Shown in pieces: positions 29,297 to 34,984 of a DNA stretch of 61,288 nucleotides. Both the position numbers and the translations under genes were made by a program. The DNA is from Methanobacteriaceae archaeon. Its GTDB lineage: Archaea > Methanobacteriota > Methanobacteria > Methanobacteriales > Methanobacteriaceae. Every line of letters starts with the position of its first letter. The stretch's first letter is position 1. The notes under the pieces were generated by a model. That model was not told where the DNA came from and made no database searches. It saw only the letters and a program-made list of their open reading frames with translations. The stretch is from assembly GCA_029219465.1 (NCBI GenBank), contig JAQXTL010000020.1, positions 1 through 61,288 on the forward strand, read 5' to 3'.

Positions 29297-29855
29297 GATC
29301 AATCAACTCCTCCCATTTACGTCCGTGATAAACAGGTAATTCACCTAAAGAATCCATGTTTTCAACAACATCGTCATCTTCTTCATCAACGTATTTTTTG
29401 TATACCCATCTCATTAAGTCAGCCATGAGTAATACTTTTCTATCAGTTTTTTCTACAGTACAAGTAATACCTTTGTAAGTAGGGTCTGAACAACAGTAGG
29501 TATCGTGGCTTACAATAGTGTTAGCCCATGGACCTTTACAAATGAATACAGTACCTTCGTGAGGTGCGTCTCTAGATACAGCACAGTTTACAACAACTTC
29601 ACCAAAGTCGGTTTTAACAAGGACGGTGTCCCAGTTGTTTACACCTAATTTAGCCATATCCCTAGGGTCCATGTAACAAGTACCGGAAGCGTTTTTATAT
29701 TCTTCTTTTAAAGTGGATCCTCTTTTCTTACAAGCACCTTGGTAGATGTCAGATCCAGTGTTTAACATACATTTAAGAACATCAGTAGTTCCTTCACCAG
29801 TAATTTTTACATCAGGTACTACAGGTTTTTCTAAATAAGTATTAGCGTAATGCAT
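29286..29855 (-). CDS. fwdD: Formylmethanofuran dehydrogenase subunit D
   Basis: A 189-residue protein of the molybdopterin dinucleotide-binding C-terminal family, which together with FwdB binds the pterin cofactor. Motifs are [31 protein letters not shown] and [12 protein letters not shown]. It is longer than the minimal FwdD (about 130 residues), with an extension ([37 protein letters not shown]) ending in an acidic tail. It overlaps fwdB by 11 bases and follows fwdG after 13 bases. Confidence 0.92.
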
Positions 29856-29868
29856 TATATAATCCCCC

Positions 29869-30099
<231 letters not shown>

Positions 30100-30107
30100 C
30101 CAATCAC

Positions 30108-31205
30108 CTAGTCTTTAATAGCATCTAAAGCTTCTTTCCAAGTAGCGGAGTTAATAGGAGTGTGGTCAACTTCAGTTCTTACTACAGTAATAGCATCGTT
30201 AGGACATGCATTTGCACATGCTTTACAACTTACACAGTATTCGCCGTAAGCAACAACGTGTGCCATTCTGGAACCTGGAGCGGTAGATACAGGGAATGCT
30301 AAAGCATTACATTGACAGATATCTACACAAGCACCACAAGCTTGACATTTGTCATCGTCGACTTCAATAGAACCTTTGAATGGTTTTTTAACTTTAGCAG
30401 CGTCTGTAGGACATACGCCTTCACACCATCCACAGTATACACAGAGTTCAGAGTCGATAATAGAGTTACCAGTAACAACTGCGTTAGCAGGGTTTAAGTC
30501 GTACTCTCCGTAGTTACATGCTCTACAAATAGCTTTGATAGCGTTAGTAGGACAGGATTTTTTACATACGAGACAGTATACACATTCATCTTTGTTGATA
30601 ACAATAGATTCTTTACCAGTTTCGTGATCAACGTAGATAGCTTCTGCAGGACATAATTCTTCACATACACCACAGTAAATACAGTCATCTTCGTTTACAT
30701 CGATTTCACCAGTTACTAAATCAGCACGGTCTGGTAAAACTCTGTCGATAACGATTGCGTCACGAGGACATGCAATTTCACATCTTTTACAGTAGACACA
30801 TTCATCATCATCAATTTCTGAGAAAGCATTGTAATGAGGATATGCTTCGATTTCTCTGATTGGTACGCCATCAATAGTTAATACTAATGCGTCAACAGGA
30901 CATAATCCACTGCACATACCACATAATACACATTTACTTTCGTCAATGCTTACTCTTTGAGCATCAAAGTCGTCTTGGAAGTTTTGAGCAATCTTTTCGT
31001 GTCCACTGAAGTAGATGTCGTTGGAAATTCTGTGACGAGCATCGATAGCAACAGCTTTTACAGTAATCGCTTCAACAGGACAAGTGGATTCACAAATCCC
31101 ACAACCTAAACAGACATGGTCATTGAAAGACAAGTTTCTGACTTCTTCTGCAGACCTTGTAATGTCAAAGTTATTATCTTTAACCTCTTTTAAATTTCTA
31201 ATCAT
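30108..31205 (-). CDS. fwdF: Polyferredoxin subunit FwdF
   Basis: A 365-residue polyferredoxin with eight visible CX2CX2CX3C modules: CLGCGICESTC, CVLCGMCSGLC, CVYCKRCEIAC, CIYCGVCEELC, CVYCLVCKKSC, CVYCGWCEGVC, CQACGACVDIC and CVSCKACANAC. They act as an electron wire into the formylmethanofuran dehydrogenase complex. An additional CRACNYGEY stretch between modules five and six is not a full cluster motif. Ribosome site GGAGATTT. The start lies one base after the HTH-ferredoxin stop codon. Confidence 0.94.
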   Translation of the reverse strand: MIRNLKEVKDNNFDITRSAEEVRNLSFNDHVCLGCGICESTCPVEAITVKAVAIDARHRISNDIYFSGHEKIAQNFQDDFDAQRVSIDESKCVLCGMCSGLCPVDALVLTIDGVPIREIEAYPHYNAFSEIDDDECVYCKRCEIACPRDAIVIDRVLPDRADLVTGEIDVNEDDCIYCGVCEELCPAEAIYVDHETGKESIVINKDECVYCLVCKKSCPTNAIKAICRACNYGEYDLNPANAVVTGNSIIDSELCVYCGWCEGVCPTDAAKVKKPFKGSIEVDDDKCQACGACVDICQCNALAFPVSTAPGSRMAHVVAYGEYCVSCKACANACPNDAITVVRTEVDHTPINSATWKEALDAIKD

Positions 31206-31206
31206 A

Positions 31207-31656
31207 TTAAATCTCCAAAATTTTTATTGAATTAGTTGGGCATTCATCTTCACAAAGCTGACAACCACAACATTGCATGGAGTCTGCATACGCTTTTAAG
31301 GACACCAATTTAATAGCATCCATCTTGCATGCATTTACACATAATCCGCAACCAATACAGGAGTCTTCTACACTTGCTTGGAAATTTCTTTCTTTGCAAA
31401 TGTTCACAATTTTACGACTCTGTTCTGGATTATTAAATATTGCTTCAGTCATTATTAAAAAATCTTTGGGAGATAAGTCGATGATTGTTCTTGCAACGTC
31501 AATTGAGTTCCAAGATAAGTTTCTACCATTCAAATAATGAGAAATAGTAGACCTATCAACACCTAACTCATCAGCAATCTCTTGATGACTTTTACCAGTC
31601 ATTTTTAATTTAACTGCAGCCAAATATTTTAAACCAGAAGCAATATGTTTTGGCAT
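31207..31656 (-). CDS. HTH-ferredoxin fusion, first gene of the fwd operon (FwdH-like)
   Basis: ATG 31656 is preferred, preceded by GGTGG with five-base spacing; an upstream ATG at 31668 lies inside a palindrome and precedes this site. The 149 residues contain an N-terminal helix-turn-helix (KSHQEIADELGVDRSTISHYLNGR, 22-45), a helical middle, and two 4Fe-4S motifs. The ligands are C100/C103/C106/C110 and C129/C132/C135/C139. It is the first gene of the operon, as fwdH is in Methanothermobacter. The joining of a DNA-binding domain to redox clusters suggests a redox-responsive regulator of its own operon, or an electron carrier with a relic domain. Confidence 0.8.
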   Translation of the reverse strand: MPKHIASGLKYLAAVKLKMTGKSHQEIADELGVDRSTISHYLNGRNLSWNSIDVARTIIDLSPKDFLIMTEAIFNNPEQSRKIVNICKERNFQASVEDSCIGCGLCVNACKMDAIKLVSLKAYADSMQCCGCQLCEDECPTNSIKILEI

Positions 31657-31666
31657 TTGAACCACC

Positions 31667-31685
31667 ATGTGTAATGATTACACAT
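31667..31685. promoter_or_regulatory. Palindromic operator, fwd side
   Basis: ATGTGTAATGATTACACAT is a perfect 19-nt dyad with a one-base centre. It lies in the fwd leader, just upstream of the GGTGG ribosome site, and about where transcription would start from the minus-strand TATA at 31695-31702. The half-site recurs upstream of mobB. Confidence 0.7.
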
Positions 31686-31989
31686 ATGTTTACCTATATA
31701 AATATAGTTACCTACTAGATTAAAGACACAATACTTATATATAACTGTGGTATAACTACACAATTTTTTTTAATAAAATCTCTTAAAATCCTTAAAATAA
31801 TTAAATAATAATTCATAATAATTAATTTTTTTAGAATTAATCAAATATCCTTTAAATAATAAAATTAAGAACGTATATTTATTAATAACATTAAAAAATG
31901 TAAAAATTATGTAAAATTTGTAATAAATATATTCCATAAAAGTATGAAAAAAACATGAAAAATCATGTAATTTATTTTGGTCATCCTAA
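31686..31989. promoter_or_regulatory. Divergent fwd/mobB control region
   Basis: About 300 AT-rich bases without a gene. Minus-strand TATA elements lie at 31695-31702 and about 31734-31744. The second is directly preceded by a degenerate copy of the operator, TGTGGTATAACTACACA (31746-31762), with one intact half-site ACTACACA. The rest, to 31989, shows only A/T-rich sequence. Confidence 0.5.
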
Positions 31990-32008
31990 ATGTGTAGTAA
32001 CTACACAT
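31990..32008. promoter_or_regulatory. Palindromic operator, mobB side
   Basis: ATGTGTAGTAACTACACAT is a perfect 19-nt dyad sharing the ATGTGTA(A/G)T half-site with the fwd-side copy. It lies 65 bases before the mobB start, next to an AT-rich TATA candidate (about 32006-32018). Confidence 0.7.
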
Positions 32009-32073
32009 AAATTATTTAGAAATTCTTAATTAATACAAAATACAATATTATAATATAATAAGGGGAAGATAAA

Positions 32074-33108
32074 ATGAAAATTGTATCCATAGTTGGAAAG
32101 AAAAATACTGGAAAAACTTCACTGACTGTAAAAGTTATTGAAGAGCTTACAAAAAGAGGTTATAATGTTGCATCAATAAAACATTCCCACCATACAATGG
32201 AAATGGACAGGGAAAACACTGATACCTGGAAACATAAAAATGCAGGATCAAATGTTGTAGTTGGAATTGGTTCAACAACATTCTTTAATGTAAGAAAAGA
32301 AATGGATCTTAACAGATTACTATTTTTAATAAAACATATGGACAATGTTGATTTTGTTGTAATTGAAGGATTTAAAAGATACAATTACCCAAAAATTGCA
32401 ACATCCCCTGATGTAGTTGATGAATACACAATTAAACAGGTTGATTCCTTTACAATTGATTATGAAGGTTTAACAGAATTAGTAGACCTCATTGAAGAGA
32501 GATCACACGACATAGTAGACACATTATTTGCAAACAACTGCGGATACAATGACGGTGAAGCTATTGCATGTGACATCAGAAATGGAAATATTACAGTAGA
32601 TAACTTAGATGAAGTTCACAGCTACCTTTCAATTGACGGTAAAGTAGTTGGATTAAACAGATTCGTTAGTGATTATCTAAAACAGTCCGTTCTTGGTGTT
32701 ATCAATACATTAAATTTAAAAGATTATAATGTTGAAGATATTCAAGATATTGAATTAATCATCCCTGGAAAATCCCACTTAACCCCAACTGATGCTAACT
32801 GCAGTATTCAAATTAATGGAAAAGATTTAGAAATAAATGCATTTACAAAAAATATTGTTTCAAATTCCATTAATGGAATGATAAGATCCCTTAAAACTGA
32901 AAGTGATGTTAAAACAATTGAAATTGTTATTTCCAATATTGAACATGACCAACTAGAAAATGCTTCAATTGAACTTAAAACAAACAATCACAGTGTTGAA
33001 ATCAATGAATTTACCCAGGGAATCTTAAAAGAAACAACCTATGCAATTGTAAATTCTTTAAAAATTGATGATGAAATTAAAGAATTAAAAATCAACGTAG
33101 GAGAGTAG
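32074..33108 (+). CDS. mobB: MobB GTPase with three C-terminal repeats
   Basis: A 344-residue protein. Residues 1-160 are MobB, the P-loop protein of molybdopterin guanine dinucleotide synthesis: [10 protein letters not shown] (8-17), [26 protein letters not shown] (33-58) and [16 protein letters not shown]. After a Cys-bearing link ([21 protein letters not shown]), residues 185-231, 244-287 and 298-343 form three similar units. Their pattern is strand-NGK/H-V-(I/L)N-x-F-helix-xINSLK-x-IK-x-IEI. The repeats are not part of ordinary MobB. The gene makes cofactor for Fwd and Fdh and shares an operator with fwd. moaA follows four bases later. Confidence 0.85.
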
Positions 33109-33112
33109 GCGC

Positions 33113-34048
33113 ATGTTAAAAAACGTAGTTAAAGACAAATACAAAAGACCTATCATCTCCTTAAGAATTACAATTACAAACAGATGTAATGAAAACTGCC
33201 TTTACTGTCATCATGATGGAATGGTATCTTCTAAAAATGAAATGACTCCTGATGAGCTATTTACTATAAGTAAAATAGCTAAAAGAATAGGAGTTAAAAA
33301 AATCAGGCTTTCCGGTGGAGATCCTTTAGTAAGAAAAGACATCGTAGAAATCGTTGAAAAGATTGCAAGTCTTGATTTTAAAGACATTTCACTTACAACT
33401 AATGGAGTATTGCTTGAAAAATATGCTCAGGGTTTAAAAGATGCTGGACTAGATAGAGTAAATGTCAGTTTAGATACTTTAAATAGAGATACCTACAAAT
33501 ACGTAACATCTAAAGATTATCTTGAAAAAACAAAAGCTGGAATTCTAAAAGCTGTAGAAGTTGGATTATATCCTGTTAAAATAAACATGGTAGTGATGAA
33601 AGATATCAACGATCATGAGATAAAAGACATGTTTAAATTCTGTCAGGAACATGGAATTATCCTTCAGTTAATTGAATTAATCGAAAGTGAAAGCTGTGAT
33701 GATGATGACTTCAGCAATAAACACCATTATTCATTAGACCCACTTGAAGAAAAGCTAACCAATATATCTGATGAAGTTCATGAACGTAAATTTATGCAAG
33801 GACGTAAGAAATATTACATAAACGATGGTGAAATCGAAATAGTTAAGCCTGTTGATAATGCTAAATTCTGCGCAAGTTGCTCCAGATTAAGGATTACACC
33901 AGATGGTAAAATCAAACCATGCTTACTTAGAAATGACAACCTTGTAGAATTAATTTCACATATAAGAAATGGTGAAAGTGAAGAGGAACTTGAAGAACTC
34001 TTCATGAAAGGAATATATAACCGTGAACCATTCAACAAAGAAGATTAA
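33113..34048 (+). CDS. moaA: GTP 3',8-cyclase MoaA
   Basis: A 311-residue radical SAM enzyme starting molybdopterin synthesis from GTP. The SAM cluster CX3CX2C is at C25/C29/C32 ([10 protein letters not shown]). [20 protein letters not shown] and VNVSLDTL follow. The second cluster is in [21 protein letters not shown] near residues 250-272. The usual C-terminal GG of bacterial MoaA is absent: the protein ends EPFNKED, so the tail needed for activity in bacterial enzymes is not conserved in this form. It lies four bases after mobB, in the same operon. Confidence 0.93.
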
Positions 34049-34105
34049 ACAATTCTACTTTAAACCTAATTAATCATTACCATTTAACCAAATAAAGATT
34101 AAAAA

Positions 34106-34142
34106 AATGTTATTTGTAAAAATAACATTATTCTCTCTTTTT
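34106..34142 (+). terminator. Hairpin terminator after moaA
   Basis: A 9-bp perfect stem AATGTTATT/AATAACATT (34106-34129, 6-nt loop) is followed by TTCTCTCTTTTTT. Confidence 0.7.
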
Positions 34143-34220
34143 TAACAAAAATCAATGATAAAATTATAAATAACATGATTTGTATTATAAATCGTTATAA
34201 ATTATTTAAGGTGAATATAT

Positions 34221-34984
34221 ATGAATTATGATATGTCTGGCAAAGTAACCATAATTACCGGTGGAGGAAAAGGAATTGGATTTGGAATAGCTACTGCATT
34301 TACAAAAGCAAAATCTAACCTTGTAATTACAGGTAGAACCGAATCAACACTCCTTAAAGCTAAAGAAGAACTTGAAGACAAATATGGTGTGAAAGTTTAG
34401 CTATTACAGCTGACGGCGGTTACGAAGACCAAGTAAAAGGAGCAATTGACAAAGTAGTTGAAGAATTTGGAAGAATAGATGTATTAATTAACAATGCACA
34501 AGCTTCCAAGTCCGGATTAAAACTTATTGAACACACAAAAGAAGACTTTGACTTAGCAATTAATTCCGGATTATATGCAGTATTTAACTTTATGAAATTT
34601 ACACACCCATATCTTAAAGAGACTAAAGGGTCTGTAATTAACTTTGCATCAGGTGCAGGATTATTTGGAAGAGATGGTCAATCATCATATGCTGCTGCAA
34701 AAGAAGGAATTAGGGGATTAACCAGAGTTGCTGCAACAGAATGGGGTCCTGATGGAATTAATATCAACATTGTATGTCCTCTTGTAATGACTGAACAGTT
34801 AGAACAATGGAGAGAAGAATATCCCGAAATTTATGATAAAACCATTCAAGGAATTCCATTACAAAGATTCGGTGATGCAGAAAAAGATATTGGTGGAACT
34901 TGCTTATTCTTAGCATCAGATGCTGCAAGTTACATTTCTGGTGAAACCCTTACCCTCCAAGGAGGATCAGGTTTAAGACCTTAA
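34221..34984 (+). pseudogene. Short-chain dehydrogenase/reductase, frameshifted
   Basis: From ATG 34221 (ribosome site AAGGTGAAT) the frame gives an SDR N-terminus with ITGGGKGIGFGIATAF and LVITGRTES, then stops at 34398-34400 after about 59 codons. The remainder continues in another frame without interruption to 34984. It contains INNAQ, SYAAAKEG (catalytic Tyr/Lys) and the C-terminal SGETLTLQGGSG. One missing base in the T-run at 34396-34398 (GTTTA where GTTTTA is needed) would explain it. Restored, the protein would be about 254 residues, the normal SDR length. It is either a recent pseudogene or a sequencing error; the rest of the gene is well preserved, which fits either. Confidence 0.85.

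Follow-up and report, generated by a model that had tools for sequence, protein, structure and literature searches.

FwdH of Methanobacteria, annotated as a formylmethanofuran dehydrogenase subunit, as a candidate iron-sulfur autoregulator of the fwd operon

Known regulators and the FwdH protein

Regulators of the IscR/FNR type join a DNA-binding domain to an Fe-S cluster that tunes their binding to promoters, in the way that is proposed here for FwdH; they are bacterial proteins of other folds (Rrf2, CRP) with a single cluster per monomer. In lambda-type repressors, multi-site regions with fixed spacing are typical of repression by looping. Among the regulators of methanogens, MsvR has a V4R domain, acts on another operator and is not an Fe-S ferredoxin fusion. 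In the part of its description considered here, MsvR is redox-responsive, like the protein proposed below, was first characterised in Methanothermobacter and is modulated by cysteine residues (PMC3729527). The nearest architectural analogue is CnfR/PatB of cyanobacteria, which combines an XRE-type HTH with two 4Fe-4S sites and activates the nif genes (PMC8510180). It thus shares with FwdH an XRE domain, a ferredoxin-like 4Fe-4S pair and a target that is an Fe-S-rich, oxygen-sensitive enzyme (PMC8510180).

The target in our case is formylmethanofuran dehydrogenase, which commits CO2 to methane and has 46 Fe-S clusters according to the title of the 2016 structure paper by Wagner (cited in PMC8516115). 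A DNA-binding protein that is encoded beside formylmethanofuran dehydrogenase genes and acts on them has been described for Methanothermobacter: Tfx regulates fmdECB, the operon of the molybdenum isoenzyme, and its own transcription is repressed by tungstate. The consulted parts of the review (PMC3087415) describe no Fe-S domain in Tfx, and by its description Tfx is set apart from FwdH. The same source lists fwdH as the first gene of the Methanothermobacter operon fwdHFGDACB for the tungsten enzyme and its product as subunit H, and those parts of this review of Methanothermobacter genes yielded no regulator for the operon of the tungsten enzyme.

The locus described here belongs to a Methanobacteriaceae archaeon, whose analysed genome comprises 1.66 Mb in 21 contigs and is about 99.6% complete. 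It lies within a window of 61,288 nucleotides, by which we mean the whole stretch of DNA that was analysed, and in which the fwd genes run on to about 25317 (Table 1). Judged from sequence, FwdH looks like an autoregulatory Fe-S transcription factor and not like an enzyme subunit, and we consider it likely that it is a DNA-binding autoregulator acting through TGTGT-N7-ACACA dyads.

Table 1. Position of fwdH, its neighbours and the associated DNA sites in the window
Feature	Position	Strand	Remarks
fwdF polyferredoxin, second operon gene	30108..31205	-	NF042909
fwdH, proposed regulator, first fwd operon gene	31207..31656	-	149 aa, XRE-type HTH and 2x[4Fe-4S]
FwdH two 4Fe-4S motifs, residues 97-146	31219..31368	-	C100, C103, C106, C110, C129, C132, C135, C139 invariant
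FwdH HTH, residues 18-46	31519..31605	-	R35, S36, T37, S39, H40, Y41, G44, N46 invariant in 45 homologues
O2, proximal dyad ATGTGTAATGATTACACAT	31667..31685	.	over predicted transcription start of proximal TATA (start inferred from TATA distance)
Proximal TATA-like box TATATTTATATA (on - strand)	31695..31706	-	from sequence; conserved in relatives
Distal TATA box TATATATA (on - strand)	31736..31743	-	from sequence; conserved beside O1
O1, distal dyad TGTGTAGTTATACCACA (- strand)	31746..31762	.	abuts distal TATA
Iron-box-like palindrome TTTTGGTCATCCTAAA (consensus TTTAGG-N4-CCTAAA)	31975..31990	.	imperfect in window
O3, upstream dyad ATGTGTAGTAACTACACAT, in front of mobB	31990..32008	.	245 bp from O1, 323 bp from O2
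mobB, molybdopterin-guanine dinucleotide biosynthesis protein B; divergent neighbour, second candidate target	32074..33108	+	
moaA, GTP 3',8-cyclase; downstream of mobB	33113..34048	+	

The fwdH open reading frame reaches 31668 (153 aa), but its start is likely M5 (MPKHI, 31656), since more distant relatives align from MPKHI, the Shine-Dalgarno sequence GGTG directly precedes it and, as read from the sequence, the upstream ATG is out of frame in Methanothermobacter. An earlier sequence-only reading of this DNA had noticed an HTH and two 4Fe-4S motifs in the first fwd gene; its residue numbers fit the 149-aa form and not the 153-aa frame. Both domains are real, with HTH_3 (PF01381) scoring above cut-off, and the fusion protein does carry the enzyme-subunit annotation that had been expected for it. 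HTH_3 was matched in all 45 homologues (E <= 0.01), the invariant residues from R35 to N46 are those of the recognition helix, and all eight cluster cysteines are invariant in the same 45 proteins, on the same chain as the HTH. In the AlphaFold2 model, residues 1-89 are helical and confident (pLDDT about 80-95), and the Fe-S part is of low confidence. A Foldseek comparison with XRE regulators such as C.Esp1396I gave weak matches (best E 0.34), and the sequence match to lambda cI is likewise weak. FwdH and its locus share with lambda cI and other XRE repressors the XRE/HTH_3 domain, the 17-bp odd dyads and the multiple operators, but there is no phage context, a ferredoxin domain takes the place of the cI C-terminal domain and the fold match is weak. 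Compared with CnfR/PatB, where the 4Fe-4S part is N-terminal and the XRE domain C-terminal, the order is reversed with the HTH of FwdH at the N-terminus; FwdH is moreover encoded inside the operon that it apparently controls, the promoter context is archaeal, and the likeness that was seen is that of the two domains.

Orthologues of FwdH occur in Methanobrevibacter, in sister genera, in Methanothermobacter-like families (in Methanothermobacter at G047:C1:1420674-1421120) and in one genome of 1,243,342 bp, as a rule with one copy per genome. The N-terminal domain was not found outside the class Methanobacteria in a phylum search of only 152 genomes, and in a further small set of archaea the matches were partial and, where coordinates were listed, mainly in the ferredoxin part. 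In the FwdH-negative Methanobrevibacter genomes FwdF is matched only once, where two or more matches are usual, and this indicates an assembly gap. A genus of the same family (g26, genomes from G131 on), which we take to be Methanosphaera-like, has neither FwdF (NF042909) nor FwdH, as fits a lost CO2 reduction; because both are absent, this genus is uninformative for the co-occurrence of dyad and FwdH. NCBIfam has a model for FwdF; among the matches listed for FwdH, none is specific to it or reaches its cut-off.

The annotation itself, the listing of FwdH with the enzyme in the consulted part of PMC3087415, the place of the gene inside the operon and a canonical dicluster ferredoxin motif set would all suit a genuine Fwd subunit that serves in electron transfer or assembly, in which case the dyads would be bound by another, unlinked transcription factor. 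We regard this as improbable. Electron transfer leaves no role for a conserved XRE-type HTH whose recognition helix is invariant, and the FwdH chain is absent from the solved structures of the Fwd complex: sequence and family-profile searches of all PDB chains found no FwdH, and the Fwd-containing entries 5t5i, 5t5m, 5t61, 7bkb and 9sw6 match only via FwdF or other ferredoxin subunits. A weakly bound FwdH subunit could, on the other hand, have been lost in purification.

Dyads at the fwd promoter

Two perfect 19-nt odd dyads had been claimed in the sequence-only reading, and the coordinates as well as the perfect symmetry of both, O2 and O3, were borne out. Across the 1.66-Mb genome the exact 17-bp core TGTGTARTNAYTACACA is limited to these two sites, and this restriction to the fwdH locus is what is expected for a local regulator and speaks further against a subunit role of FwdH. 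The site O1 differs from the core by two mismatches, and the sole other two-mismatch match in the genome (C2:105269) is inside an ORF. O1 had been taken for a degenerate third copy; it is a real site, but across relatives it is the best conserved of the three.

This conservation was followed through 81 extracted fwdH promoters (80 distinct). At O1, the TGTGT-N7-ACACA dyad keeps at least six of eight core bases in all 81 promoters (at least seven in 78, six in three), with 60 distinct 17-mers among them, and, with a single exception, its position relative to the start codon is about -104 to -109. The expected co-occurrence of the dyads with the fwdH gene thus extends across the class Methanobacteria, and a loss of the dyad in relatives that keep the gene, which had been named as the outcome that would speak against the idea, was not seen among these promoters. 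The O2 core is kept to at least seven of eight bases in 60/81 promoters, at about -27 to -31 from the start codon, and is degenerate or lost in the other 21, mainly in the M. ruminantium-like group and part of Methanobrevibacter. An earlier count over 78 promoters, for which the shuffle control was made, found at least seven of eight core bases in 74/78 promoters at O1 (17/3900 in shuffles) and in 59/78 at O2 (6/3900 in shuffles); the 81-promoter counts use better start sites. The spacing between O1 and O2 is 77-79 bp in 55 of the 57 promoters that have both, and exactly 78 bp in 42. At the dyad pair 6/12 of O2, Methanobrevibacter has A-T and Methanothermobacter G-C, so that both halves changed together, in keeping with a symmetric site.

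O2 belongs to the leader, immediately 5' of the Shine-Dalgarno GGTG and outside the coding sequence, and this position would be in keeping with an RNA hairpin or a riboswitch-like leader element. That the dyads are elements of this kind is nevertheless highly improbable, as O1 and O3 are upstream of TATA boxes and outside the fwd transcript, and the region 29500-34500 has no Rfam match. In the locus L158, an insertion of about 190 bp parts O2 from the Shine-Dalgarno sequence and yet O1, O2 and an upstream dyad are all retained, which disfavours the leader-RNA explanation. L158 had also been considered as a relative without dyads, and this was rejected because all three sites are present and merely displaced by the insertion.

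In essentially all promoters O1 is 2-4 nt upstream of a TATATATA-type distal TATA without overlapping it, which would equally suit an activator that recruits TBP/TFB from O1, with help from O3 at a distance. The dispensability of O2, a repressor-like site that 21/81 promoters are without, and the activator role of CnfR, the analogue closest in architecture (PMC8510180), point in the same direction. However, O1 covers the BRE region and O2 the predicted start, and several sites at fixed distances are the typical arrangement for looping repression. Because of these site positions we lean towards FwdH being a repressor, and regard activation through O1 as a less probable but serious alternative.

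A wider regulon was also considered and rejected: the extra matches in Methanothermobacter are mostly inside ORFs, and none is a clear second target. At fdh genes, where the sequence-only reading had proposed to look for the dyad, none was found within the window. An intergenic overlapping TGTGTGTATGAGACACACA dyad was observed upstream of a methyltransferase-like gene (L193:1783-1801, G047 C1:1643782-1643800); it is present in 8/8 Methanothermobacter-like genomes searched, once with one change.

The upstream dyad, the molybdopterin genes and an iron box

In most loci of Methanobrevibacter s.s. the dyad ATGTGTAGTAACTACACAT precedes mobB, and the sequence flanking it has drifted. The mobB gene has two candidate TATA boxes, one on either side of O3. 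Outside Methanobrevibacter s.s., no mobB promoter with a strong dyad was found, except for a 10/10-core site at L172, which is a probable sister-genus locus. The link between the fwd operon and the pterin genes that had been read from the shared palindrome is therefore supported by dyads in Methanobrevibacter and is not general, and by comparison of the loci the fwd sites are class-wide and the molybdopterin-gene link looks like a later addition. The MobB protein (32074-33108) is considerably extended at its C-terminus, and self-comparison hinted at an internal repeat (26% identity over about 107 residues).

In 31 loci O3 and O1 are 245-248 bp apart; in five others the distance is 256-257 bp, longer by one turn of the helix. 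The spacer between them (228-231 bp among 32 loci) is about 51% identical in equal-length pairs compared without gaps. The gap between O3 and mobB, though shorter, is more variable (mean 62, s.d. 6). O3 also stays fixed relative to O1 where mobB is displaced, be it by about 190 bp, by an insertion of 1.7 kb with a ferredoxin and a polyferredoxin gene, or further, and in most cases in which mobB is displaced from fwdH a separate dyad is found near mobB. As O3 keeps its place with respect to the fwd promoter and persists where mobB is gone from its side, it can on these grounds be assigned to the fwd control region as well as to mobB. Upstream dyads with no mobB adjacent are also found elsewhere, against a background of 0.027 hits per 570 bp: several sister genera have one that is O3-like, between -349 and -365, and the M. 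ruminantium-like group has a tandem pair, near -385 and -409. The helical-phase argument holds within Methanobrevibacter s.s.; the O3-O1 distances of other genera do not fit one helical phase. All these loci are related and do not count as independent events.

Some loci show further arrangements. In L181, an M. ruminantium-like relative, FwdH-type dyads stand three in a row at -408, -385 and -362 from fwdH, in 23-bp steps, and its sisters keep two of the three. In several Methanobrevibacter species, at L092:3314-4534 and also in L093, L095 and L096, genes for a 63-aa ferredoxin and a 338-aa FwdF-like polyferredoxin are inserted between mobB and fwdH, and dyads flank this insert on both sides.

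In Methanobrevibacter s.s. a TTTAGG-N4-CCTAAA box is located on the fwd side of O3, and it accompanies O3 and not mobB. The genome has nine perfect copies of this palindrome, one of them between feoA and a FeoB part and three before feoB. In the feoA/feoB region (G000 C6:31598-33899, L256-L259) four perfect palindromes were observed, three of them within about 200 bp before feoB. With up to one mismatch the count is 28 versus 21 in the control and thus only slightly above it, so that weight is placed on the perfect copies at feo, where the palindrome is a candidate iron regulon motif. In Methanococcus voltae, DtxR regulates FeoAB (PMC8516115), and a DtxR-type protein may bind the box here. Because the box next to O3 has perfect copies at feoA/feoB, iron is a likely input, which suggests that iron supply is at least part of the sensed signal.

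The clusters of FwdH might instead be structural, and FwdH a simple autorepressor that holds fwd expression steady without sensing redox state or iron. This would agree with the report, in the consulted part of PMC3087415, that the tungsten enzyme is constitutively formed in Methanothermobacter, but the invariance of the eight cluster cysteines in 45 homologues and, in Methanobrevibacter, the iron box abutting O3, which indicates an iron input, make it unlikely. The same constitutive formation means that the dynamic range of fwd control may be small.

Proposed control of the fwd operon and its meaning

In the mechanism that we propose for FwdH as an autoregulator, the N-terminal XRE-type domain, probably as a dimer, would bind the 17-bp TGTGT-N7-ACACA dyads at its own promoter, namely O1 (beside the distal TATA), O2 (where transcription from the proximal TATA begins) and O3 (some 246 bp upstream). 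The C-terminal dicluster ferredoxin domain would tune this binding to the Fe-S supply or the redox state. Under repression, FwdH on O1 would block TFB/TBP, FwdH on O2 would block the start site, and a loop would be stabilised through O3. In Methanobrevibacter s.s., where O3 is within the mobB-moaA promoter, formylmethanofuran dehydrogenase and its pterin cofactor would be jointly controlled. An iron-loaded DtxR-type protein might compete at O3 and relieve the repression when iron is plentiful, a step that we put forward tentatively. The complete picture, in which a ferredoxin-type transcription factor senses the Fe-S or ferredoxin state, forms a multi-operator DNA loop and has one arm made iron-dependent by an iron-repressor box, is similarly speculative; if it is true, FwdH would be the first cluster-based regulator of the CO2-entry step of methanogenesis. 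The overall interpretation of the locus given in the sequence-only reading is partly supported.

Fe-S transcription factors and XRE-ferredoxin fusions are already known kinds of proteins. What is new here is the regulator role for a class-wide protein annotated as a subunit, the conserved multi-operator design and the join with an iron box. No description of FwdH as a regulator was found in the literature searched, which mostly did not extend to subscription journals and in which fwdH is rarely mentioned. If the regulator role is true, the enzyme-subunit annotation in most Methanobacteria genomes would need correcting. Through an Fe-S regulator of this kind, conserved and encoded in the operon itself, methane output in the dominant methanogens of gut and rumen would be tied to the supply of iron and reductant. 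As only a single small protein and three short sites on the DNA are involved, it would offer a testable handle on a key step of gut and rumen methane formation.
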